A stretch of 64,000 nt of DNA from Chiridota heheva. Taxonomy: Eukaryota > Echinodermata > Holothuroidea > Apodida > Chiridotidae. The stretch is taken from the NCBI GenBank assembly GCA_020152595.1, contig JAIGNY010003238.1:100001-164000 (forward strand), written 5' to 3'. Position 1 is the stretch's first letter, and every line of letters starts with the position of its first letter. A model generated the notes under the pieces. The model worked only from the letters and a program-made list of their open reading frames with translations, made no database searches and was not told the origin of the DNA. Below, piece after piece: positions 353 through 64,000 of this stretch. Both the position numbers and the translations under genes were made by a program.

Positions 353-807
353 AGATGTTTTAAAACAATTCCAAACTCCATGTGTTTATCCTTTAAAATG
401 TGATTTGGAAAACAAATTCAAAGACATGGTAAGATTTCCATTTGTATTGCGCATATCAATGAAAACACAAGCCAGAAGACCAAGTTTATGAGAGCAAAAA
501 CATTTTATGACCCATTAATGAAAATGAGGTTTAGTTAAACATGTTACGGTGCAGACTACCTCTGTAATCTTGACCCAAGTCGCACCATGCAATAGCTGAA
601 GAGATACTTGCACTTAACATGTTCTCCTTGTTTAGTTTGATTGTGACAGCAGTCACAATAGAAACCCTTCTATCAGAAACAAAAATATCCCACCTGCTAC
701 CCATCATATTATCTAAACTTCCCATGAAACTTTCCCTATAAGAATAAACCACCTTTCTCTTCAAAAAAAAGTCCCAACTAAAAATGCTTAGGTCTGTATC
801 TAAAGCC

Positions 808-815
808 GTAGCACC
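808..815. repeat. hAT target-site duplication, left copy
   Basis: The 8-mer gtagcacc lies immediately before the left terminus of the hAT element; an identical copy lies at 6627-6634 immediately after its right terminus. Confidence 0.95.
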
Positions 816-3800
816 CAGTGCCGGATTTAGACCTATGGAGGCCCTAAGCTTGGAATTATGAAGAGGCCTCGATGTAGGTAACGCTGCGTTGTAGGCGTGG
901 GGTCCAGGGCCCGCCTAGGGCCCTGGAAGCTATCGTAATTTGGTCGATTCTAATGCAATCTAGCGCATTTCCTGGCTTTAATTACCCAATTTTTAAGACT
1001 TATTTAATGACACTTAATGACATTTAGATAAAATATGTTATTTACATTTTTATCAAGTTATTATAACAGACTCAGTTAGATGAGACATAGGTTTTTATAT
1101 TGTATTTGATGTATATTTTACATAATTTATATACATTTTTACCCCAACATACGGGCACACAACCCGACATTGGGGCAGGCAACATTGTTGTGCTTGTCTC
1201 CAATTAATAAAATACCGTATAATCTATAATGAAAGTCCCCTCTAATAAACGAACCGCCCTTTTTCTCAAAATCAAAAACCATGCAAGGCCTATGAAATGT
1301 ATGTGTATAATCTGCACATACTCCGATCTCAGTAAATAATGTTTAATTAACATATATCCCACAATAACAGAATTAAAAGCAACATATCTGATGGATTGCA
1401 TGCAAAAATGTGTGTAAATGGTAAGTTTTGTGTATGAAAATTATACTCAAATAAACGCCCCCGTTACTAAAATGTCATGCGGGGTTTTATTGGAGATTAT
1501 ACGGTATTCTGAATACATGGACAATAATTTAATTAATTTACACTACGATCAGTCTGTGTATGGCAGTATTGTTACTAGGTTACAGGATAAATGATTTATT
1601 GATGTTCACCTTACTGATATTATATAATAACTCATTTTGCCACAAATTACACTACACAATATGTAAAATCTTTATTTGAATGTTTCTTTTAAAACATTTT
1701 TTTGTCTTGCTTTTTCAAAAGCAAAGTCGTTGATTACATCATCAAATGATAAACTACGAAGCTTATCAGTTTCAATACACAAAATGCTTAGAGCAGACAA
1801 TTTGCTTTGTGAAATTGTTGTCCTTAGTTCATTCTTTGGCGTTTTAGCTGAGAAAATGACCTTTCTCCTGAGCAATTTGTTACCATCATACTCAAAAACA
1901 ACCGTAATATTGATTCTAGATTTGGAAAGGCTAATTTAATGTTATCTTTCCAGATAATTCCATATAAGTCTTGATGACTCATGTCATCGTTTTCATAAGG
2001 AGAATGACTTTGCTTTACATAAGTATGAAACTGTGTAAGTTCTCCAATAAGGTTGTCATCTACGTCATTTGGGTATTCCTTTACAAGATTCGCTACACCT
2101 GCACGTAACAGTTCTTCTGAAGCATCCAAGTTAAGTAAAAATGTAAATTTGTTTGAAATAGAACTATAAATCATTGCGCGTCTGCTTAAATTAGTTTCAA
2201 GGGCATCAATCATCGGAATGAAAGATTTTATTCTAAAGTTGTCTCTTGAGAGAGTTCCACATCAGGTGCAACACCGTTGTTTACTTGAGGGTTTCGGACA
2301 CGACGCCTTTTCTTTGCACACTTATAGTCCCACCAGGCAGAAATTCCTTTGTCTTTGACTCAAAGTCATCAAAACACTCTCGGGTTGTCTTTAAGAATTG
2401 TGTTTAGCGATGCATACAGCTTAGAACATGTGTTAAGTGATATTTGTGGATCTTGAAGTGCCTTGTTGGTTTTCCGAACTTATCTAAAAGGCGATTCCAT
2501 ACAAGCAACATGAAAACAAACTCGATTTCCTCCATTTTATCAAGAATTGCTCCAGCTTCAGTTCTTGTGTCACCCTTTTCATTGTCATCATTGTGGATGT
2601 GACTAAGAGCATCGGTGATTGAATCATAGCTCTCTTCTATTGCTGCAGTAGCCTTGGCATGTGCTTCCCATCTAGTGTCTGAGAGGTTTTGGAACTTTGG
2701 AATCGACATCTAAATATGATAATAATACCCTCCAGCGTTTTGTGGATGCTGAAAAGAAAGTGTATATTTTTGTGCAATTCCAAAAAATTTACAGCATCTA
2801 AACAACAATCAACTGCAGCACGACCTACAAGATTTAGGGAATGTCCTGCACATGGAATAAATAACGCATACTTGTTTTGCTCCAAAATCTTTTGCTGCAT
2901 ACCATTAAATTTACCAGACATATTTGCAGCATTTGTCGTAAGATTGACCTCGACATTTACTAAAGTCCAAATTACATTCTGTGCTTAAATAATCCAAGTA
3001 TCATATTTGCCATACTTTCCCCACTGTGGTTCTCTAATTCTAGAAATGTTAGAAACCGTTCAATCGGGTAAACCATCTTCTGGTGATATATCTAACTATT
3101 ACAGTTAGTTGATCAACATGTGAAAGGTCTGGGGTCGAAGTCAACTGATATGCTAAAGTAACCTGCTTCCCTAATATCACTCAAAATCGAGTTTCTGACT
3201 TTTTGGATATAAGCTGAATTATTTCATCACATATTGTTTTAGACAAATATGAAACATTTCCTGACCCTTTATTGCCATGTTGTTGTATATGATTCGATAG
3301 AAAGGGGTCAAACTTGGCTATCAATTCCAGTAAACCCAAATAATTTCCATTATGTGGCGACCCTACTTTTTCATTTGTACCCTAAAGGCCAAAGCCACGC
3401 TCTGCTAACGTGCATATAACTGCAATGATGCGCTTAAGAACATTTCTCCAATAATTTTGTTCTCCTTCAATTTGTTGTATTAGTTTTGAATCTAGTAAAT
3501 TTAAACGCGTTTTCGTCAGGTATGTTAACATAGCTTGTCTATGCTCTACCGAATTTTCATGAGCTTTAATTACAATGGGATTTCGCCAGTCATCAAACCC
3601 AGTAGAAGCTAGTGCCTTAGATGATGTAGAGAATAACTTGCAAACGAAGCAGAAGACACTACCTTTGGAAGGAGAATACACTAACCATTCTCTGTCATAT
3701 ATTTCTCCGTTAACATTTTTGGAATTAAATAGACCTTTGGAACAAAATCTGTCCTGTGTTTTAAATGACCGTTTTGATTTATCAAATGGGCCATTCCAGT

Positions 3801-6626
3801 GCTGACATTCAGAAGGACCGTTCGGATACAATATGAAATGTCATCTTTAGTTAAAACATCCCACAGTCCAAGATCAAACCTTTCGTTCTCGTTTCATCCC
3901 AGTATTCCCAGGCTCAGCAACCCTTATTGTTGCATCAATATCCACATCAGTAGATGTATGTTGTTGCTCATGTACTGAATGATTTTCTGTAGTGTCGGGT
4001 GCTGTTGCTCTAGTAAAGTAACTATCAACAGTTGGAATTGTTTTTAGTTGATCTTTAAGTTGCTGCTTTCGTTTTCCTTTTCTGGTACCGCTTTGAAAGT
4101 TCTTTTCATTTTGAGATTCTACGGATGGATAAATAATGAAAATGAAATGCTTTACCTGCAGGGTCATATAATTTCATAGGCGGATTTAAGGGGCCGGGAT
4201 GAAAGTCCATTTCCCCAAACCAGTGGTGAAATTACATATCCCATTTTTTAGAGGATGATATGACTCTAACATGAATGCTAACTAAAACTTTATTTTTCCG
4301 AACCACATATCAATTACTTTTTAGCTAATATTAGGTAGAAGGTCTAAACACCACCCTGTACAGAATTCATACACTGATACACTCAAACAACAATGCCATC
4401 GCTTACCATCATGTATGGTGTAATATTCCTCATCAGCGTCACGACCAGGACTCTGTGGGGATGGTCAAAATATTTCCCCAAAGGGCTGACAAGTATACAA
4501 ATATCATGCGGCCCCTCGTCCGCCTCCTACGCCTATGTACAAACCATAATAATTTTGAATTGTGTTACAACTTACCGGTACTAAGAGTGGGTTAGGTAAC
4601 TTAACTTACCGATTTTAAGAAACCGATTTAAGTTAGTTTCCCTTGATACCTACCACCATTCGTCATATTTGTTTATTGTTTATTATTAATGGATCAAAAT
4701 AATAACAGAATAAGCGACCAGTAAAGATGTTCTTAAAGAACAGAGGCCCTCTGTCAGGGCATAAGTGCACATTCAGATATAAGGCAATGGTGATAATTTT
4801 AAAAGAACATGTCCAAGCGTACTGTATCTACTGAGCCTATTCTCTGCGGCGAGTCACCCTGGATCTCGGATGCTTTTCCCGTTGATGACATATATGTATT
4901 TTGCCATATGGTCTTGCCGGTATTTCTTGCTTCTCCCATTAATCCACTGTCCGGCGCACCCCGAGTAAGGACAACATTTCGAACAAACCACAAGTATTGG
5001 GCACTGCAGCATGTCGCACTGTCTGAGGCCCTGTAGCGTCCACGGGTGCCAGTACTAGTGCAATAACCCAATTTGGCAACTGACACCCTTGAGCGACCAA
5101 CACCAGTTCAAGCGGTTGAGACACTGCCACCCCCAACTATCAGCGCACCGCCGCCAAGGCACGGTCATGTCATGAGGCACGGTCATGTCATGTGGCGAAG
5201 CGAGTGGACGATAGTTTCTGCAAATTAAGTATCAGGAAATGCGCTATGATGCATGCAAGCCCTTTGGATGGATGCCCACATTTATTTGCAAATTGCGCTG
5301 AACCATCACAATAAATCGCAGATCTCAGTCTCTCACAGTTCAATTTGCCCCCTTTCCAGATCCCCATGTAATTTAAACAAATATTATGAAATATAATATA
5401 ATTTACCTTAAGTTGTTTTTGTGAAAGTTGCTAAATTGCTGTAATTATGACATCCACATCCACAATATAGTTTTAACTACGAACTTCAATTTTTTTAAAT
5501 TCCTCTGTCGAATTGCAAATTTAAGCATCCAAAATATATTTAACAGCGTTTTACATTTATTAAATCCAGAACATCAATTCTCTGAAAACATGATTTATTC
5601 CATTGTCTGTGACAAATCATGGTTGAGTTGTTTATAAACATATATGGAATTACAATATGATCACACCACATGCACTCTCTAATAAAAAAATGTACCATAA
5701 ATCCAAACTGCATGTGTGCAACTTTAATACTATAATACAATAGAAAATGAAATTACAATACCCACCGCTTTACGATCATGCATGTTCAAAGTACAAACCA
5801 TGTGGATGTGGTATTGTGAGTTATTTATAAATATGTGTATACATTATTATAAAACCCAAGTTTTGTTTATTTATTAATATCTCCTCTCTATGAAAGGGGA
5901 TTTTTATTTGGGTATAATGGATATATTGGATTTCAATTAATCATTTATGTATTTAACCCTTAAAACATCCTATTTATTTATTGCGCAATACCCAGAAAAC
6001 GCTACAAGCGTGTAAACCCCATTGACTTGCTAAAACAACTGGAAGTAAAAGCGAAAAACCGAAAACATGCACTTTTTGTTTTTCGCGATTGATCACTGTA
6101 GGTACCACACAGTCGCGACCAACGTCAAGCGGTAGTACTCGATAAGACCCCAATTCCGTACACAGTAGCCTAGGCCGAGGGTACAGCGTTCAAATTTTAT
6201 TTAGAAACGGCAAAATCGAAAAAAATGAAATATGAGTGGTTTTCTGACCTGAAAAAGTGAAACTTCTAAGGTAGATATGTGAAAATAGACCCGGATTCTT
6301 TGTCACTGGGCGTACAGCTTTATTATGATACCAACTTCGACAGGGTGGTGGCAGTATTCATGAATTTATAATAAATCAAAATCGAAAATCTCCACGACCT
6401 AAAAAGGGAATGGCGTGTATATTAATAAAAAGAAAAAGGAAATTATCAGTCAAATAAATTTTGTGCTTGATATTTGGGCCATGATTTACCATGGTATAAA
6501 AATGCATGATATTAGCCAACCCAAATTATGTAGTACTTTTTCTATTTTTCCAATTTATTTTGAGGCCCTCAATTAGGCGAGGCCCTAAGCTGTAGCTTAG
6601 TTAGCTTATGCGTAAATCCGGCACTG
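816..6626 (-). mobile_element. hAT DNA transposon (ZMYM-type), 5.8 kb, decayed
   Basis: The element starts cagtgccggattta and ends in the reverse complement taaatccggcactg, and is flanked by the perfect 8-bp duplication gtagcacc, the target-site length typical of hAT elements. A subterminal word ggccctaagct occurs near both ends in the same orientation. It carries a minus-strand transposase relic (about 1672-4167). The ~2.4 kb between the transposase start and the right end (4170-6626) holds no gene I can support. Insertion is into an exon of the gene at 531-7034. The clean TIRs and target duplication make the boundaries secure; the broken transposase makes it non-autonomous. Confidence 0.95.
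1672..4167 (-). pseudogene. hAT transposase relic (TTF zinc finger / DUF4371 / hAT dimerisation, ZMYM1-like)
   Basis: Minus-strand fragments line up in the order expected for ZMYM1/ZMYM6-type hAT transposases. The N-terminal Ser/Thr/Lys-rich leader (4167-3874) comes first. The TTF-type zinc-finger region (3831-3382) follows, with WLVYSPSKGSVFCFVCKLF and the FDDW motif. The RNase-H-like core (2921-2637) has MSGKFNGM and CAGHSLNLVG. A segment with LSDTRWEAHAKA spans 2709-2404. The C-terminal dimerisation region (2213-1672) has CSGERSFSQLKR and SKLSALSILCIE. The pieces lie in different frames, with stops and frameshifts between them, so no full-length protein can be made. In active relatives this protein cuts and pastes the element by binding its terminal repeats. 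Confidence 0.9.
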
Positions 6627-7034
6627 GTAGCACCCAGTAACACATGTCTACAATAGGATTTACTTCTAAGAAATCTGTAAACTTCTTTTCTTAAAATGAT
6701 ACCTAGCTGAATCTGCCTTTCTTCCATTCTGTATGATGGATCCAACCGGATTTTTTGCTGACACTCTTTGCATATGTCTTTTTGCACGCTGCTAATTTTT
6801 TTTGTTCAGCTTGGCTGCAAGGGACCGAGGCAAGTTTCAAGCGCGAGATGGGAACAGTTATATTGATGACCTCATCACCAATCATGAAGCCTTCAGCACC
6901 AAATCCATTTCCTATGCAACCTTTCAGTCTTTCCACATCAAAATGAAGTGTCCCATTGCCGAAAGCCAATGAGCAAATATCACCACAAGCAATTACAATG
7001 CCTTCATGGCTCATTGCAGTTAGGAATGAGTAAT

Positions 7035-7924
7035 CTGAAATAATGAAGAGAAATTAAGTTTTTTAAGAAAGACTTTCAGGACCTTTCTCATCAGAAATCA
7101 AGTCTCTGCAAGTAAATACTGAAAAAACAAGGACCTCGTGAACTGATAAATTTAAAGTAAGGACTTAGGATCCATTTTACTGAGACCCAACTTTAGTGTG
7201 AGGGTTTCCAATGTAATCCTACATTTCTGATTTGCTTAAATATTTCTTTGCCTGAATCATGTGTCTTTTTATTTATTTTTTTATTTAAGGAAAGTTACTC
7301 AAATAGGAGAAAGGAAATTCCTTTCATAATCAGGGATTTTAAAAGAAAACAGGATACCTGTCACATCCTTACACAAATTCAATTTCCCGCTGCTTTTCAG
7401 CTGTTGGGAGCGGCAATTTTGAAACAATTTTTGATACTTGGAATTATCCTGGGGGAGGGGAGGATAGTTGATATAGTGAGGTAGGGGAGAGGGACACTGG
7501 CAACTTCAATAAACTTCTAAAAATGTCCTTAAAATTCCGAAATATTAATTTCAATTGAAAGAATAGGGATTGAAGAAGCAATTGAACAAATTTCCAACAT
7601 TTCTGATATCTAAATGTGAAATAATTTACAATAAAAAGTAGGTCCATAAATAGCACCACATATTTTCGCTAAGTGTTTCAACAAGTTTTGTCCAAAATTG
7701 TAGAGTTTCTTGAAGGGATGAATTTGACTGCTTAAACCAACTTTCCTTTCTAATACTTCATTCGGTCCGATGTTTCTTGGCTCCATATTTCCTGCATTCC
7801 CAATATAATTGGTCCATCCATCTGATGGGTGCATTTTTGGTTCCGATGCCAATAGCATAAGGACCTATGTTGGCATGTGTATGCGGGTGTATGTATGTGT
7901 GTCTGTATGTGTGTCTGTGCTCGA
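7035..7924. other. Intron-like / intergenic DNA, no gene identified
   Basis: AT-rich DNA directly upstream (minus strand) of the unrecognised terminal exon, so probably its last intron. A pyrimidine-rich acceptor precedes position 7034. No further exon with convincing coding character was found. Confidence 0.4.
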
Positions 7925-14908: not shown

Positions 14909-16495
14909 GTCCCACATGGCATCCTATGTCCCACATGGCATCCCACCCCATGTCCCACATGGCATCCCACCACATGGCATCCCCCCCATGGCATCCCACC
15001 CCATGTCCCACATGGCATCCCACTCCATGTCCCACATGGCATCCCACCCCATGTCCCACATGGCATCCCACTCCATGTCCCACATGGCATCTTACCCCAT
15101 GTTCCACACGACATTCCATCCCATGTCCCACATGGCATCCCACCCCATGTCCCACATGGCATCCCACTCCATGTCCCACATGGCATCCCACCCCATGTCC
15201 CACATGGCATCCCACTCCATGTCCCACATGGCATCCCACTCCATGTCCCACATGGCATCCTACCTCATGTTCCACACGACATTCCATCCCATGTCCCACA
15301 TGGCATTCCACCATATCTCCCACATGGCATCCCACCCCATGTCCCACATGACATCCCATGTCCCACATGGCATTCCATCATAGGTCCCACAGGACATCCC
15401 ATCCTATGACCCATATGGCATTCCACCTCATGTCCCACATGGCATCCCACCCTATGTCCTACGTGGCATCCTACCCCATGTCCCACACGACATCCCATCC
15501 TATGTCCCACATGGCATTCCACCATATCTCAAACATGGCATCCCACCCCATGTCCCACATGGCATCCCACTTCATGTCCCACATGGCATCCCACCCCATG
15601 TCCCACATGGCATCCCACTCCATGTCCCACATGGCATCCTATCCCATGTCCCATACGACATCCATTCCTTGTCCCACATGGCATTCCACCATATCTCCCA
15701 CATGGCATCCCACAACATGTCCCACATGACATCCCATGTCCTACATGGCATTCCATCATATGTCCCACATGGCATTCCACCATATCTCCCACATGGCATC
15801 CCACCCCATGTCCCACATGACATCCCATGTCCCACATAGCATTCCATCATATGTCCCACAGGGCATTCCACCATATCTCCCACATGGTATTCCACCACAC
15901 AGTGTCTCACATGGCATATTCTACCATATGTCCCACATGGCATTCCACCATACGTCCCACATGTTATCCCATGACCCACATGGATCCCATCCTACATGTG
16001 TGTTCCATATTAATCCAAGCATATGTACCACATGACATCCCTCCCTATGTCCCACATGGCATCCCTCCCTGTGTCCTGCATCAGTGGCTTCCCACCTGAT
16101 GTCCCACATGGCATCCCACCATATGTTCCACATGGTATCCCTCCCAATGTCCCAATGACATCCTACTTTATGTACCACATGGCTTCACATCCCATGTTCC
16201 CATGGCCTCCCACCCTATGTCCCACATAGCCTCCTACCCTATGTCACACATGGCATCCTACCTTATGTCCCACATAGCCTCCTACCCTATGTAACACATG
16301 GCATCCTACCTTATGGCATCCTACCTTATGGCATCCTATCTTATGTCACACATGGCATCACAACCTATGTCACACTCTGTGTTACTCGTGGCATCCCACC
16401 ATGTCCCACATGGCATTCTACCCTGTTCCACATTGCATCCCACCTTATGTCCCACATGTCATCCCACTCCATGTCCCACATGACATCCCAAAGGC
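14909..16495. repeat. Large 24-bp minisatellite with higher-order structure
   Basis: More than 60 near-copies of the 24-bp unit tcccacatggcatcccaccc + catg. The unit is divisible by three, so long frames stay open on both strands (MSHMASHP and GHVGCHVG-type repeats); these are by-products, not genes. A marker variant with gttccacacg or gtcccacacg recurs near 15099, 15267, 15479 and 15647, i.e. about 168, 212 and 168 bp apart. 168 equals seven units, indicating a higher-order repeat. The array decays from about 15900 onward. Confidence 0.95.
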
Positions 16496-17290
16496 TTCTT
16501 AAGAAGTCTCATCCTAGCTATCACAGTCACTAATTGAGCATACTATGTATGAAAGTGTCAGTTCATATAATAAGTTATATGCAAATGACTCGTTGAAATT
16601 AGGATGGGACGCCATGTCCCACATGACATCCCATATCCCACATGGCATTCCATTCCATGGCAATCCACCCTATGTCCTGCATGGCATTCCACCACATATC
16701 CTACGTGGCATTCCACCCTGTTCCACATGGCATCCCACCCCATGTCCCATATGGTATCCCACCCCATGTCTCACATGGCATCCCACATTTCATCCCACCA
16801 TATGTCTCACATGACGTCCCATAAGCTCCATTAGAAGTCTCATCCTAGCTATCACAGTCCCTGATTGAGCATACTATGTATTAAAGTGTCAGTTCATATG
16901 AAACTTATATAATAATAATAATGAATACTTGTTATGCGCCAGTATCCATCAAAATTGATGCTCATGGCGCAGCGACACAACAATTAATGCAAAACAATGT
17001 GAACAAAAAAGAAATGTTAGTTAAGAATACATATTAAGAATACATGGAAATGAGTTGTTGAATAAGAAAAAAAGGTAGAGTCAAATAATTATGCCTGATA
17101 TAGCCCTTGGTGTATACAACATGGTAAATATTATATCATATGTCCCTCATAGCTCCCATCCATGTCCCACATGGCATCCCTCCCTATGTTTATATGCAAT
17201 CACATTCTGTCACACTCTTTGACTAAGCATGCTTAATAAAAAAGTCTGGTCAGGTCATATACTGTAGTAACTTTATGCAAATAAGCACAA
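16490..17290. repeat. Duplicated minisatellite plus non-repeat tail (~320-bp period)
   Basis: A tail containing agaagtctcatcctagctat, gagcatactatgta and gtgtcagttcatat follows the 24-bp array at 16500-16590. It recurs after a second short array (16606-16822) at 16828-16905, and more weakly at about 17200-17275 after a remnant cccacatggcatcc (17165). The array and its flank have been amplified together. An (aat)n tract with tatgcgcc lies at 16910-16975. Confidence 0.75.
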
Positions 17291-18926: not shown

Positions 18927-21900
18927 TCAGCCTGCCACTGGTTTGGAATGTTTTGAAAGTTCATCTTTCTTCTGAAAATACAAGCTTCTCAAATAAACAT
19001 TAACCTGCGGATTCTGCCTCTCATAGTTTGACCACACAGTTTCCAACCTTTGCATCGACTCGGCCCCTTCCAGTTTCCGCCCCACAAAATGTAACTCCAA
19101 CATTTCTTGAGATATAAGCCGACATCCATCAACCTCACACAAATCCTTAGCCTTTGACCTGTCTAATAAGGGCATGAGCCTTAAACCAGCAACCCTTTCA
19201 AGGTCCTCTAAGCTGACCTGGTAACCTCCAAGTTGCTCATCCCCTGGTATAGGCTCGTTAGGAACGATGAAAGCCCCAACAGCAATCGGTGGCTGGTGTA
19301 AGTCGTAAGGATTCTCCACAGTGATAACTTTGAATAAATGAGTTGGAGCTGCTACTAAATTTTTTCCGATAACCTGATGCAAGAAAAGAGAAACGTTCAT
19401 TTAAAAAAAGGTATCTTTCAAGAAAAACAAAAATTAATTATAACAGGTCTACAAACACCCGAGAAATATCGACAAGCAAATGTATTTGTAAATGTGCATT
19501 GGTGGATTTTGGTAAACTTCAGTGCCCAACTTTCTTAGCTGAATGTTTACTTTTACAAAGCAGTAGATCTGTCCTGACCACTTTTACTTTGCCGTGATGT
19601 TTGCCCTGATGTATCTTTGTATGAAATTGTATAACCTTTTCTAATGGCACAAATCAGATGCACCCCAGAAATCTTACACTGCCAACATCACATCTTGAAA
19701 TTTTAAAGGTCAATGATAAAACTCTAAAAATAAATAGAATTTATTGTCTCTATTTCCTTTTCAAATTATGGATGATTAAAATTTGCAGATTTTTTTAATC
19801 TTGTAAAATTTGTGATGCATGATAGATATAAAGCTTTTAGACAAATTCAGTTAATAATCCTCGTCAAAATACAATGGTGCAGGATTTGGAAACAATGGTG
19901 TATGAATACGATGAATATACCATACGAATTTGCATAATTAAGTTCTGCAAATTATAAAATTCATCAATCTTAATTGGATTTTGATATAATTTGTTTTAAT
20001 GGCATGGATTTTGATGAGTTTCATTTCCGTATCTGTAGACCTGTAAATGAATGTCTTATCTACTTGGCAGTATGTGAAGGCAATGAATAACCTATATACG
20101 TTTATCAAATAAAACTACCAAAACCAGAAATGAGCTTTCCAGTGATCTTCTTCAGGTTTCTCACTTGGACTTACTTCATATTGCACACGCTGCTTCCCAT
20201 CCTGTGACTGTGTTGGGAGCATGAGAGGACCACTGAGCACTCTCACATCGTGGTACCTCTCTGTGAGATCTCTGACATAAATCTCAAGTCTGTTCCAAAA
20301 CCCAGCATTGTTCTTTATGTCTTGTGGGACAACATTGGATAAGAAGAACGTTTCATCCATTGCTTCCTGAAAGAAAATACCAAATTATTTCATTTTCAAG
20401 CACATCTACATTTATTTTTTGCAAAGTGATTGGACGAGAGGGAACACACCCCTAATTTACATCATCCTGTGACAAACAGATAATGTCAAATTTATACATT
20501 ATACTTAAGAAAGTTGTTCTACTTTTTAATAGTGAAGTCTATTCTATCAATTTAAAGCTTTAAAACTTTCAAGGAAAATATTGTATCTCTTTGTCGATTC
20601 TTTTATCCTGAAATACGTACATGAGCAGGGTTCATGGAATCACATTTCCATCATCACCATCCCTATTTCGGGAGATAATTTAAAAGTGATTTCCCCTGCA
20701 GAAGCCCAATTGTCCATTATCCAGCAGCAAAATTACTATACAGAAAGCTGTTCATCCATGAACCCATGACTAATGCCGTTGTTGCACTGGTTGAGCATTG
20801 ACTTACAACAAAGATCTATGGGAACCAACAGATTAATATTCTACAAAAAGAAGTTTTAAATTCAAAAATTATATCATTTTTTTTATAATCCTAAAAACAG
20901 AAATATAATTTTTGAATTTAAAACTTGCAACAAGATGCAACAACTTCTGATAGAGAATAAAGACAAAATGAAACATTTTAACAGATATCTTAGGAAACTC
21001 TGTTCCAAAGGAAACTCTGTTCCTAAGGAAACTCTGTTCCTAAGGAAACTCTGTTCCTAAGGAAACTCTGTTCCTAAGGAAACTCTGTTCCTAAGGAAGC
21101 TCTGTTCCTAAGGAAACTCTGTTCCTAAGGAAACTCTGTTCCCAAGGAAACTCTGTTCCCAAGGAAACTGTTCCCAAGGAAATTCTTTTCCTAAGGAAAC
21201 TCTGTTCCCAGGGAAACTCTGTTCCTAAGGAAACTCTGTTCCCAATGAAACTCTGTTCCCAAGGAAACTGTTCCTAAGGAAACTGTTCCTAAGGAAATCT
21301 GTTCCTAAGGAAACTCTGTTCCTAAGGAAACTCTGTTCCTAAGGAAACTCTGTTCCTAAGGAAATATGTTCCTAAGGAAACTCTGTTCCTAAGGAAACTC
21401 TGTTCCTAAGGAAACTGTTTCTAAGGAAACTCTGTTCCTAAGAAACTCTGCTCTTAAAAAAACTCTGCTCTTTAAAAAAAGTGCTTTATCTTGATCTCTA
21501 GCTTGTCAATAATTTTCTGTTTAAAGTCGACACAAGGAAATTGAAGTGTCCCCATAATTTTCTGATTACAAAGTAGACAGATTTTCCAACATGTATGAAT
21601 AAGCTTCATGGTCTACATGTAGCATTATATTGGTTAAAGGATAAGTTCAGGGGTCAAGCAAGTCCATCTTACATGAAAGAGGACTTCAAAAGAAACAAAA
21701 TAGTGAAGAATACATGTACGTTTAAAAATCTTACTCCGTTAATGTTTTAGTTCAGTGGTCAAGCAAGTCCATCTTACATGAAAGAGGACTTCAAAAGAAA
21801 CAATATGGTGAAGAAGCATTCAAAAATCTTACTCCATTAAAGGATTAGTTTAGGGGTCAAGCAAGTCCCATCTTACATGAAAGAGGACTTCAAAAGAAAC

Positions 21901-27369: not shown

Positions 27370-28555
27370 TTAGTCACCCCGTAAAAAACTCAAACTAACA
27401 CCACTACCACCACACATAAAAAAAAATATAAAAAAACGCCCACAGTTAGTAAAGAACTTTTCAATGTTGACTTTGAAATTGTGAACAGAATTGGAGCTAA
27501 CTACCCACTCAGACAAACCATTCCACTCATTAACAACTCTTTGCGAAAAACTAAAACGCTGAATATCTATTCGTGAGAACTCTTTGATCAACTTCAATCT
27601 GTTACCACGTGTCACATGAGGATTAGCTGAAACAGAGAGCTTTTACTTTAAAGTAACAGCTCCCTGGCTGAAACATGCAAGAAATAACAGGAGCATCACT
27701 ACCAGATAGGAACTTAAAGATCTCAATCATATCGCCACGTACTTTTCTCAACTCAAGCGTGGTCAAACCAAGAATTTGCAACCTAGCTTCATAAGAAAGA
27801 TTCCTTACGTTGGGAATAAGTCTAGTGGCTCTTCGCTCAACCTGCCCCAAAATGAACTTATCCTTCTTATAAAAAGGACTCCAAGCCTGAATAGCATACT
27901 CAAGATGAGGCCTGACTAACTGCTTACACAAATTAAGAACAACCTCTCTACCAAGAAAACAACAATTTCTTTTAATCAAACCAAGCATCATATTTGCCCT
28001 TGCAGCTGCTAAAGCACACTGTTTAGAAGGTTTCTGAATGCTGGTAATGACACCACCTAGATCCCTTTCTTGATCAACACAACCAAGATTTAAACCATTC
28101 ATGCAGCAATTAAAAGCCAAATTGTTCTGACCAAAATAAATAACTTTGCATTTATCAACATTGAATGAAATCTGCCATGTTTGGGACCAAGAAACTAACT
28201 TATTCAGATCAGTTTGCAAAAGTGAAGAATCCTTAGCATCATCAACAATCCTGTACAGCTTACTTTCATCAGCAAATTTACAAATCTTGGTACCAAGGGA
28301 AACATCAATGTCATTAATGAAGATTAAAAAAAGAAGCGGGCCTAATGCAAAACCCTGAGGAACACCACTTGTAACCTTCTTCCATGGAGATACTTCACCA
28401 TTACCAACAACTCTTTGTGACCTGTCAACTAACCAAGAATATATCCAACTGGCACACTTTCCCTCCACACCAAGTGCTCTTGTTTTCATCATTAGCCTGC
28501 GAATAACAAACACTAAATAAGGCATGGAAGTGAAATCAGTACTTAAATATATCAT
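27370..28555 (-). pseudogene. LINE reverse transcriptase palm/thumb and C-terminal region
   Basis: The longest open frame (28555-27623, 310 codons) contains the RT palm blocks GVPQGFALGPLLFLIFINDI and CKFADESKLY. The catalytic second Asp of the usual F/YADD box is Glu. NVDKCKV and LGGVI follow. A frameshift near 27620 separates it from the C-terminal QRVVNEWN block at 27615-27370. Active relatives copy LINE RNA into DNA by target-primed reverse transcription; this copy cannot. Confidence 0.85.
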
Positions 28556-29253
28556 TAATTAGCTTCTGCATGAAATAATAAAACATATGTTCAACAATAT
28601 AAACATTTCCACAATTTGTTAATATAATAATACATCTGTAAATAGATTCAGCATATTTTGACAATATTAATGTTCTTGTGTCAGAACTTGTCTTATAATG
28701 AAATGTTTAAAACCCTCTGGTTTTATTTTAAAGGTTCAACCAAAGATATGGATATATAACTGCCATCCGTTCATATAAACCTAATTTGATATCAAAATAA
28801 ATCAATATCACAACACCCTATAGTTTTCCATATTGAAATAACTCTCCATGCATACAGTTCCCTTCTATTCTATAAATCATTAAGTTATGATACTCAATCT
28901 AAGCGATTAGAAGCATCCAATCATCAGTAATCCTGGTTAATGGGTATGCAGTCAACAGTGCTTTTTGGAAATCTGAATAGATGATAACATCCGCATTATG
29001 ACCAGAATCAACTTGTTTAGTAACATCATCAAGAAACTCCAATCAATTAGAAACACACGACCTCTTAGGTAAGAACCCAAGCTGGGACAAATTCAACAAA
29101 TCATTGACCAGTAAATGATCTAGTACAACATCCTTAACAATGGACTTCATGACCTTGCATACAACACTTGTAAGACTCACTGGCCTATAGTTACAAGGCA
29201 AACTTTGGTCACCCTTTTTAAAAATAGGAGTGACATTAGCATTTCTCCAATCG

Positions 29254-29793: not shown

Positions 29794-32040
29794 TTGGTTT
29801 TTATTTTGGAGGCCGTTGGACACAGAAGACTCAGTATGCTACGGAATATTCAGCTATCTGGAGCTCAGAAGAGAGCGTCTTCCAAAGAAAGGAGTGAAAA
29901 AAATGCTGCTGTCTTGGCAGAGAAATTTATATGCTTCACAAGTAAAAATATAGAAGCTAATGATGAAGAACCAGTACCAGATCATGTCCCTTCTGAGGAA
30001 CCATCGGCACTCCCAAGTTCATCTGCAGGAAATGAGAGTAACATATCAAACCAAGATAATGAAGGTGATGGATCACATCCTACAGATATGTCAAACATGG
30101 CTAGTGAAGCGCCGTCATGTGACCCAGACCCAGCCATGTCTGCATGTGGTTTCCTGTCAGAGAAAAACATGTGTCCAATTGGTCAAAATCAGTTATAATG
30201 TGTCAAAACAAAAATGACTCTTGACTCCTACCCAGAATCTCGACGCCATTATCAATCAGGTCAAGACAAACTGGATGGGTATTGCCGTTATTTCAAAGAT
30301 TCCATGTTTTATACGAGTCATGACAATGGTGAGCAGCATTTGAGAAAGTGGCTTCTGTACAGCCCGTCGAAGGGTGCAGTCTATTGCTTTTATTGTACTT
30401 TGATGTTCTGCCGACGTGACAGGTTTTCAGCGAGGATGGATTCAGTAACTGGGAAAAAGCGCGGGAAAAAATGAAAACTCATGAATAAAGCCAAGGTCAC
30501 AGAGATTCTGTGCTCAAGTTCAATCTTCAATGTAGGGAGTCTTCTCATGTTGACAGAAAGTTCGAAAATAAAGTGCAGGAAAACAAGAAATACTGGACTG
30601 AAGTATTGTGCCGTGTTTGGACGTGACAATCTTTCTCGCTGAGAAAGGCCTGGTATTTATGGGTAGTGAAGAGATCATACAGTAGGATCCAAGCATAATG
30701 GGAATTTTTAGGAAGTATGAAACTCATTCCCAATTCGATCCATTTCTGATGCGTCACGTTAAAGAATTTGGCAATCCTGGGAAAGGTAAGGAGTCATACT
30801 TATCACCGACCATCTACGAAGAAATTGTTCTGGTAATGGCAAAACATGTTAAGAATTATATTGTGACAGAACTTAAAACTGCCAAGTACTTCTCACTTTC
30901 CGTAGATTCAACACCGGACCTGGCTTATGTGGACCAGCTAACAGTCATTGTGCGATATGTTGCTTTTGGGAAGCCAGAAGAAAGGTTTTTAACTTTCTTG
31001 CAGACTGGATCTCACAAGGCTGAAGAACTGGCTACGTCTCTGATAAAATTTCTAGAAAAAGAAGGTATCTAATTTGAAGACTGCAGAGGACAGTCTTACG
31101 ATAATGCAAGTAATATGTCTGGTCACTACACAGAAATGCAAGCCAGACTTCAGAATAAGAACCCAGCAGCCGTTTTCATTCCCTGTGCTGCTTACTCATT
31201 GAATCTTGTTGGACAGTCTGCTGCCTCTTGTTGTGTTGAAGCTGTTAGCTATTTTGACTTCATGCAAAGGTTATATACCTTCTTTTCTGCGTCAACACAC
31301 AGATGGGCAAAACTAATAAAGGCTTGGAATGAAGGAAATAAAAGAGCTCTAAATGTGAAGTCCTTATCAACGCCAGTGCACCACAACTGGTTATCAAAGG
31401 CCGTGGACATTGACTTGGTTGTCGATGTTATGTCTGTCCGTACGTCGTACCTGTGTTCTCGTCCGGGTCGTATTAAGCGTTTCGTGATAGCATTTGTACT
31501 ATCATAACCGAATACGCAGGCGACGACCCCGTCATTGTAATTGTGTGTTCAACTCTCTCTCTCTCTCTAAGTCCTTATCAGACACTCGCTGGTCAACGAG
31601 AGCTGATGCTACTGAGGCCCTCGTAAATGGATACAACTGCATTCAAAATGCCCTGAGAGATATTAAAAGTGACTTAGGGCAAACACCTGAAGCACGACAT
31701 GACACTCAAACATTGGCGGACAAAATGGACGGTCTTGAGACTGCTCTGACAGTCTGATGGCCAAAATCTAGAATGTAATTCTTGTACGGGTTAGCAGCAC
31801 AAATAAAGCTTTTCAAGGAGTTTAGGTTGACCTGAAAAAAAGTGGTGGACCTGATTTATTCTCTTGAGAAGTTTCTGAAATCTCTTCGGAATAGGTATGA
31901 AGAGTTGAAACTGATGCCAAGAACTTCTGTGGCGACGCAGACTACAAAGAAGTTACAGGCAGGCCAAGAAAGAGAAATAAACGTTATGATGTGAATCCAA
32001 CACCAGACAGAGGAAGTTGTCATTTCTCAAAGAAAAATTA
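29794..32040 (+). pseudogene. hAT transposase relic 2 (TTF zinc finger / DUF4371)
   Basis: Plus-strand fragments in order: an acidic leader (29794-30198), and the TTF-type finger region (30214-30474: YCRYFKDSMF, WLLYSPSKGAVYCFYC). Next is MGIFRKYETHSQFDPFLMRH and the FSLSVDSTPD catalytic-core block (30698-31072). The RNase-H-like core follows (31115-31360: MSGHYTEMQ, CAAYSLNLVG), then, after the inserted SINE, LSDTRWSTRADATEAL (31580-31757). Further out-of-frame remnants run to about 32040. Stops and frameshifts separate the pieces, and I could not find the C-terminal dimerisation region, so this copy is more decayed and shorter than the one at 1672-4167. Confidence 0.85.
31370..31568 (+). 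mobile_element. SINE (family C fragment) inserted in hAT transposase
   Basis: A 199-bp segment ending in a (tc)n tract is bounded by the perfect 12-bp direct repeat aagtccttatca (31358-31369 and 31569-31580). Removing it restores the transposase reading frame across the junction (NVKSLSDTRW). It includes cacaactggttatcaaaggc, also found in the minus-strand SINE at 35690-35833. Confidence 0.85.
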
Positions 32041-51937: not shown

Positions 51938-53130
51938 TTATTTCTTGGACTTGAGTTGACATGTGTCCACTACACATAGATCCTGGTATCGTGATAAACC
52001 TGGCAAGAATATCACTCCTGCATACTTTTGCAGAATCAATAGGTTCTCCTTAAAACCCTTCGGTTCTCGGTTCTTTCCACAGTCTTTATTAGGCACAATG
52101 AAGGTTCCAACTGCAGTGGAACTGTTTCCTGTAGGATTTTCAACAATGATGATCTTGAATAAATGAGTTGGTACTGATATCATGCTATCTCCTATAACCT
52201 GTTTGATGAAGCGGTAAAAAAGAACACAAAAGTAGTTTGTGCATGCATGCTATATATTTTTTTTAATAATTTTTTTTCTTTATTTCCAATTATTCCTATA
52301 TATTATTTTGCGTAACCATTTGAGATTCGTCTAAATATTGATGGGATGAGTGCTGCAATATATCATCGGTATATGACGGTCATGCCTTTATTGCATTCAA
52401 AATCTTGTAATATGAGTGATTCAGTGATCTTAAAAAATGAGGGTTTCTCCCGGACTGTCAAGTGTTTTAGTTGAGTCCCTCGTAACTAAGCCGAGAACGA
52501 ATGCAACAAAATGAAACTCGAATTATTGTGGAAGAATCCACAGTCCATGCGGAGGAATGAGGGAGGGGAGGGGAGGGGAGTGTATGGGGTTTATATCCTT
52601 AGAAATTAAATCTTTCGCACGGCAAATCCACGCGCATGCACTCTTTCATACACTCTTTTACACCCTAAAAACAACGTTGGGGCCCAATATCCCTATATAT
52701 TGGACTTTTTTCCTGCAACAAGCGATCACATTTGACTTCTTTTTGTTTTTCCTGCCTCTAAATTTGTCAAAGCAGTAGTAATGAAGAGAATATGGAATAA
52801 TACATAAACATTTGTAAAGAAAGAATAATAATGAGTCGTTTACAGCAATAAAAAAAAATTACAGCAATATTCAGATAATAGCCGTGACAAACAGTCGAAT
52901 AAAAGAATCTTCCAGGCAAACTTACATCATATGAAACAGAACATCTGTTGCCCTTGTTTGGATCTGCAGAGCATTGAGGGACATATAGTGGGCCACTGAT
53001 CACACGTACATCCTGGTATCTCTCTGTGAGCTCTCTGACATACTCTTCCAGCTTCCTCCATATTCCTTCATTGTTATGAGCGTTTTGCGGAACCACATTT
53101 GAAAGAAAATTTTTTATCGTCCATTGCAGT
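51938..53130 (-). pseudogene. EXOG: EXOG copy 3: last two exons only, truncated
   Basis: Exon 4-like 52926-53130 (205 bp) and exon 5-like 51938-52198 lie on the minus strand with AG/GT borders at the positions used in copies 1 and 2. Exon 4 encodes FLSNVVPQNAH, NNEGIWRKLEEY (metal-site Asn and Glu kept) and ELTERYQDVRVISGPL, then an extra Cys-containing insert of four residues. Exon 5 encodes VIGDSM, PTHLFKI, FIVPNKD and DLCVVDTCQLK, then a premature TAA. The C-terminal extension is gone. A +1 frame slip in an A6T4 run separates the exon start (TAMDD) from the FLSN frame. No exons 1-3, and therefore no SRGH catalytic motif, were found upstream as far as 59.6 kb. I infer a partial duplicate that has lost function; a truncated transcript is possible. 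Confidence 0.8.
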
Positions 53131-53405
53131 CTGCAAGGGAAATAAATTCGAAACATTATTCGAAAAGGGCCGTACTATATTGTATTGAGAAATTTTTCAA
53201 CAGCATCAGAATATTTTCAAAACTTGTTTGATGTCACGCATAACTTGCCTTGTTCATCCATAGGTGTATGAACCTGGGCCAGAAGGATCACACCCCCTCT
53301 CCTCTCCCACACCGCCTCCCCCCACACACACGCTTTTCCCAGAAAATGACATAAGTGCTCCTTTTGAAAATGAAAAGTGTCCCTAAATTACTGTCAAAGG
53401 TGCAA

Positions 53406-54321: not shown

Positions 54322-54780
54322 AGGTATATGGTCTCCTCATGGATATGGTCTCCCCAGGGTTATGGTCTTTTCATAGGTATGGTCTCCTCAGGATTATGGT
54401 CTCCTCAGGGATATGGTATCCCAAGGATATGGTTTCGTCAAGGATATGGTCTCCCCAGGAATACGGTCTCCTGATGGATATGGTCTCCTCAGGGATATGG
54501 TCTCCTCAGAGATATGGTCTCCCAGGAATATGGTCTCCTCACGGGTTTCCCCAGGAAAATGATGGTCTCCTCAGGGATATAGTCTCCTCAGGAATATAGT
54601 CTCCTCAGGAATATGGTCTCCCCAGAGACATACCCTTCTTGAGGTTATGGTCTACTCGGATATGAGGTCTCCTCATAGATATGGTCTCCAAAGGGATATG
54701 GTCTTCCCAGGGGTATGGTTTTCCCAGGGGTATTGTCTTCTCAGGGATATGCTCTCCTCGGGATATGCCGCTCCTCAGGT
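54322..54780. repeat. ~17-bp minisatellite 'ggatatggtctcctcag'
   Basis: About 26 imperfect copies, abutting the (TA)n tract on its right. Confidence 0.9.
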
Positions 54781-54998
<218 letters not shown>

Positions 54999-63609: not shown

Positions 63610-64000
63610 AAAATTAATATTACTTTAAATGCTACATGTGTTACATGCAGGAGATCTTGGTATTTCCAGGCATCAGTGTGCATTTTTAAATGTTACTCTT
63701 AATGATGCATGTGTTATATGTAGGGGATCTTGGTGTTTCCAGGCATCAGTATGCATTTTTAAATGTTACTTTAAATGCTGCATGTCTTATATGTAGGGGA
63801 TCTTGGTATTTCCAGACATCAGTACACAAATGTTACCCTAAATGATGCATGTGTTATATGCAGGGGATTTTGGTATTTCCAGGCATCAAGTACATTTTTA
63901 AATGCTACTCTAAATGATGCATGTGTTATATGTAGTGGATCTTGGTATTTCCAGGCATCAGTATGTATTTTTAAATGTTACTTTAAATGATGCATGTGTT
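63610..64000. repeat. ~78-bp tandem repeat running off the window end
   Basis: At least five copies of a unit with aaatgatgcatgtgttatat, gtaggggatcttggtatttc, caggcatcagtatgcatttt and taaatgttact. Some frames remain open and give Cys-containing repeat peptides (NDACVIC), which I attribute to the repeat. Confidence 0.9.

Follow-up and report, generated by a model that had tools for sequence, protein, structure and literature searches.

Transposons of the hAT superfamily, with its Ac, Buster and Tip groups, are described in PMC3942097 as having terminal inverted repeats of 10–25 bp and lengths of 2.5–5 kb. The mar elements of Drosophila are presented in PMC3517528 as a hAT family of MITEs. The element analysed here, from the holothurian Chiridota heheva, shares with the superfamily an 8-bp target site duplication, short inverted ends and a transposase dimerisation domain, and its family likewise includes short internally deleted relatives. 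Its inverted ends, at 14 bp, fall within the superfamily range (PMC3942097), and its length of 5.8 kb is slightly greater than the range given there. As in hAT MITE families such as mar (PMC3517528), short members occur in this genome, here of 383–413 bp; unlike those MITEs, the inserted copy is full-length.

The window is a 64,000-nucleotide stretch of one contig (C3105:100001–164000), and the genome searched comprised 1.1 Gb. The element, a hAT DNA transposon of 5811 bp from a young multicopy family, occupies positions 816–6626 of the window on the minus strand. The repeat finder returned its left terminal inverted repeat, CAGTGCCGGATTTA, at 816–829 on the plus strand and its right one, TAAATCCGGCACTG, at 6613–6626 on the minus strand; these are counted as 14 bp because the 15th base given by the repeat finder belongs to the flank. 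The octamer GTAGCACC abuts the element on either side, at 808–815 and 6627–6634, and a listed 12-bp direct repeat is this 8-bp duplication extended by a chance CAGT. The inverted termini and the perfect duplication proposed in a sequence-only reading were thus both borne out. That reading had also called the element a hAT, and the call holds: besides the 14-bp ends and the 8-bp duplication, a transposase fragment at 1824–2261 (minus strand) matches the hAT C-terminal dimerisation region (PF05699, 24.5 bits against a cut-off of 21.4, E 2.3e-5). hAT target sites follow the motifs nTnnnnAn in Ac and nnnTAnnn in Buster. GTAGCACC agrees with the first at one of two fixed places and with the second at neither.

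A further transposase fragment lies at 3382–3840 (minus strand); other family copies match parts of it at identities of up to 97%, and it has a weak zinc-finger match, PF25431, below the cut-off. The transposase frame of the inserted element is in several pieces and the other copies are broken at differing places; the protein was read in fragments. Assembly errors may account for some or all of these splits. A second, different hAT-like transposase is represented by plus-strand pieces at 30283–30405 and 31073–31507. The first is 46% identical to part of the inserted element's transposase; the second resembles that transposase by eye only and has no Pfam match.

Other members of the family were sought with the leftmost 385 bp and the rightmost 327 bp of the inserted copy as queries, which gave 40 scored matches of 62 candidates for the left end and 40 of 76 for the right, both counts being lower bounds. 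Pairing by hand joined 26 of the 40 listed left ends to a right end. Of the paired copies, 12 measure 5756–5852 bp (the inserted one among them) and 11 measure 383–413 bp; the other three are 712 bp, 1161 bp and 15 kb long. At the 12 loci read among the 40 listed, again counting the window, each copy begins with exactly CAGTGCCGGATTTA and the flanks are all different. Short internally deleted derivatives are of two kinds with differing deletion joints, exemplified by C2327:676111–676509 (∼399 bp) and C521:315464–315876 (∼413 bp).

The interrupted exon is a terminal exon on the minus strand. Its 5′ part lies at 6627–7034, behind an acceptor CAG at 7037–7035, and its 3′ part, which contains the YSYRES and GSRWDIF blocks, at 531–807. 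Joined, the two make 685 nt that are open apart from one slip, and the frame carries on across the insertion scar to a stop at 531–533, as the sequence-only reading had it. A 51-bp tandem repeat at 152–349, 3′ of the exon, belongs to a duplicated block described below. A DNA search of the genome with the 5′ exon half (6627–7034) found three places, all on this contig: the window copy itself (W), a paralogue A at C3105:78252–78657 that is 94% identical and shares the acceptor, and a paralogue B at C3105:89900–90000, cut by an N stretch and visible in part only, which is 98% identical over the part outside that stretch. The same search found no allelic empty site. No upstream exon for W or A turned up on the contig, and the gene model of W consists of one exon.

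Neither A nor B carries the element. In both, the sequence runs uninterrupted through the insertion point with a single octamer, GCAGCACC (C3105:78250–78257 in A and 89898–89905 in B), so the site as it was before insertion is seen directly. Both octamers of W have a T that is absent from A and B; the simplest account is that this T was already in place when the element inserted. The host sequences differ at 18 of 546 aligned sites between W and B and at 50 of 1075 between W and A, the paralogues thus being 3–5% apart. Among the 12 hAT copies, private substitutions number 19 in 21,538 bases, with two in 1852 for the copy in W. Since the hAT copies are nearly identical compared with the 3–5% between host paralogues, the insertion in W appears to be recent and much younger than the duplications.

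Taken together, it is very probable that a recently active hAT entered the terminal coding exon of W, which belongs to a small group of clustered gene duplicates, and duplicated its 8-bp target. The transposase would most likely have been supplied by another copy of the family, since the coding region of the copy in W is split in the assembly. In the disrupted product, the frame of the adjoining exon would enter the element, add 18 element-encoded residues and then stop. The C-terminal ∼91 residues, which hold the YSYRES and GSRWDIF blocks, would be lost.

The exon of W is interrupted by a single frame slip. The sequence-only reading placed this slip in an A8 run (T8 on the plus strand, 6796–6803), which proved mistaken: paralogue A carries the identical A8 inside an open frame of 180 codons that continues unbroken across it, and the A8 run is therefore rejected as the slip site. 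The frame of W departs from that of A 12 bases downstream of the A8, at a short A5 run (T5 on the plus strand, 6779–6783) whose length differs between the two. Other frame breaks are present in the cluster, with one single-base slip elsewhere in A, and two slips and a stop in B; the stop is the product of a two-base change.

In natural sequence, indels are usually far fewer than substitutions. The near-identical hAT copies of this assembly show the reverse, with 38 private indel columns (20 deletions and 18 insertions) against the 19 private substitutions, and 20 of the 38 sit in short single-base runs. The resulting private indel rate of ∼0.18% per base predicts about one false slip per 685-nt exon. 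An indel excess in long-read assemblies has been described, in a paper on small genomes (PMC12007338). In a histone H4 control, five of 14 rows were full-length, 99% identical and open, the others being cut, diverged or with stops. Given the excess of indel columns over substitutions in the hAT copies, single-base slips are weak evidence of mutation here, and the slip in W may be in part or wholly an assembly error. Such slips in this assembly are insufficient alone for calling pseudogenes.

The 3′ exon half, used as a protein query against the genome, gave at least 15 rows with E no higher than 0.005. Four of these lie on this contig, one each for W and A and two for B, and 11 other contigs have a single row apiece; a second protein query added four contigs, bringing the total to at least 15 besides this one. 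The members on these other contigs share a domain with W and A, mostly at 25–45% identity, and their open frames reach 314 aa (C3249), 259 aa (C962) and 242 aa (C614). Calculated over gap-free codons with stop codons dropped, dN/dS is 0.58, 0.35, 0.55 and 0.55 in four other homologous pairs, one of which includes a fourth copy located on C3105. A fifth, short pair of 56 codons gives 1.11. A chance open frame is rejected, because none of 5000 dinucleotide shuffles of the 540-nt frame of paralogue A kept any frame open and because protein homologues exist on 15 other contigs. Judged by these comparisons, the exon is coding by descent, with homologues on 15 contigs, open frames of up to 314 aa and dN/dS of 0.35–0.58 in four of five pairs.

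The sequence-only reading had described the protein as one it did not recognise. It indeed has no name in the libraries searched: for the pieces and members tested, no model scored above the cut-off in Pfam (best E 0.026) or NCBIfam (best E 0.11), and in the PDB two single sequences drew no match even at E 10, while a profile of six members had a best E of 0.29. It is, however, no lone unknown, given its relatives on at least 15 other contigs. One member was also searched against viral contigs, with three pattern matches of which none was confirmed, and against phages, with no match; nothing in this one-member search points to the protein having come from a virus or phage. For the 91-aa window piece, taken by itself, structure prediction returned a mean pLDDT of 37.9. 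The motifs FSY and LDxLLGxxWD, at the positions of YSYRES and GSRWDIF, form a majority consensus in the family alignments. A six-member alignment has few invariant columns, all before the insertion point, where one member is cut short.

Within the cluster itself the pattern of substitution is different. dN/dS is 1.11 for W and A, on 24 differences, and 0.86 for A and B. Some 20 of the 24 changes between W and A (rounded) are nonsynonymous, with P 0.008 at an omega of 0.35 and 0.08 at 0.55. Fisher's test of W–A against the four pooled pairs, with the fifth pair excluded, gave P 0.065 (20:4) or 0.097 (19:4), so that the contrast in constraint between W–A and the other pairs, as estimated from these alignments, is suggestive and not firm. 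The stop-free state of W and A is little informative, as on a rough estimate about one stop would be expected among 24 changes. Because the pattern is near-neutral and no upstream exons are visible, W was probably a weakly constrained duplicate when the element arrived. The idea of a recoverable gene disruption accordingly stands in part: a hAT does sit in a coding exon, two empty-site paralogues and a protein family accompany it, but the copy hit is one of three or more duplicates with a near-neutral look, and it may already have been non-working.

A rival account, in which the copies of the exon had decayed to pseudogenes earlier and the hAT struck one that was already dead, is a serious possibility falling somewhat short of an even chance. 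W, A and B all have one or more frame breaks in the assembly, the substitutions look near-neutral, and a more diverged fourth copy lies near C3105:47579–47951; yet A keeps its open frame of 180 codons, W is open except for one slip, and single-base slips may be assembly errors. It is rather doubtful that W was still working, so that the hAT was the first inactivating event and the slip just an assembly error. An indel noise that yields about one false slip per exon of this length, with 38 indel columns to 19 substitutions, speaks for such a history, as do the otherwise open frame of W and the relatives on other contigs with long open frames and pairs at dN/dS 0.35–0.58. It is opposed by the dN/dS of 1.11 for W–A and 0.86 for A–B, by the stop in B, which came about through a two-base change, and by the failure to find upstream exons.

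The three copies belong to a duplicated block, common to A, B and W, that spans at least 74500–78881 (A), 86976–90000 (B) and 100001–107258 (W) of the contig, with the insertion points spaced 11.6 kb (A to B) and 10.9 kb (B to W) apart. On a simple reading these are a tandem array, part of which is hidden by N. That B and W are instead two haplotypes of one locus misplaced in tandem, which would make B an allelic empty site, is improbable: the two are 96.8% alike over 819 bp, a divergence of ∼3.3% is possible in a highly heterozygous animal on general knowledge, and an N stretch separates them, but left of the site the three pairs differ almost equally (W–B 17 of 451, A–B 17 of 452, W–A 16 of 452) and the two spacings fit a repeating unit, given the longer 51-bp array of A. 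The empty sites in the two paralogues on this contig, 11 and 22 kb from the insertion, make the order of events readable as duplication, substitution in the target octamer and insertion.

The remainder of the window holds several other features. Two EXOG-like nuclease exons on the minus strand, at 18930–19400 and 52770–53174 and so ∼33 kb apart, both match Endonuclease_NS, and the first also matches EXOG in the PDB at E about 1e-28; such a gene is suggestive of an animal source, and a COX1 search gave no match. A reverse transcriptase fragment lies at 27623–28558 on the minus strand (PF00078, E 1.5e-11). A long 24-bp tandem array occupies 14926–16786; a related inverted array is found near C3105:178.9–180.7 kb, and upstream of two other loci of the host protein family there is translated similarity to it. 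At 54322–54993 a 17-bp tandem array leads into a (TA)n stretch of 107 units, and a 73-bp tandem repeat at 63616–64000 extends past the end of the window. Scanning the window for Rfam families and tRNA genes gave no matches.

At two other loci of the host protein family, candidate upstream exons were identified (L030:1964–2182 and L031:3045–3242). They are weakly similar to each other, with a pairwise E of 8e-6 and an E of 0.002 in an all-against-all comparison of short frames that, in the part examined, otherwise consisted mostly of satellite repeats. From their position alone, these small exons are presumed to be linked to the terminal exon; searched on the contig of W and A, they gave no convincing match, only E values above 1.

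A young hAT insertion into a duplicated gene is an ordinary event and changes no general view. A broader picture can be offered tentatively from the sequence comparisons: the exon may be part of an undescribed, expanding animal gene family with a terminal-exon domain of ∼240 residues, constrained at several loci and preceded in two of them by a small, weakly similar exon, and a very young hAT burst may now be knocking out one of its most recent duplicates. The host protein family, which is without a model in the libraries searched, could deserve one, and it is a more interesting lead than the insertion.
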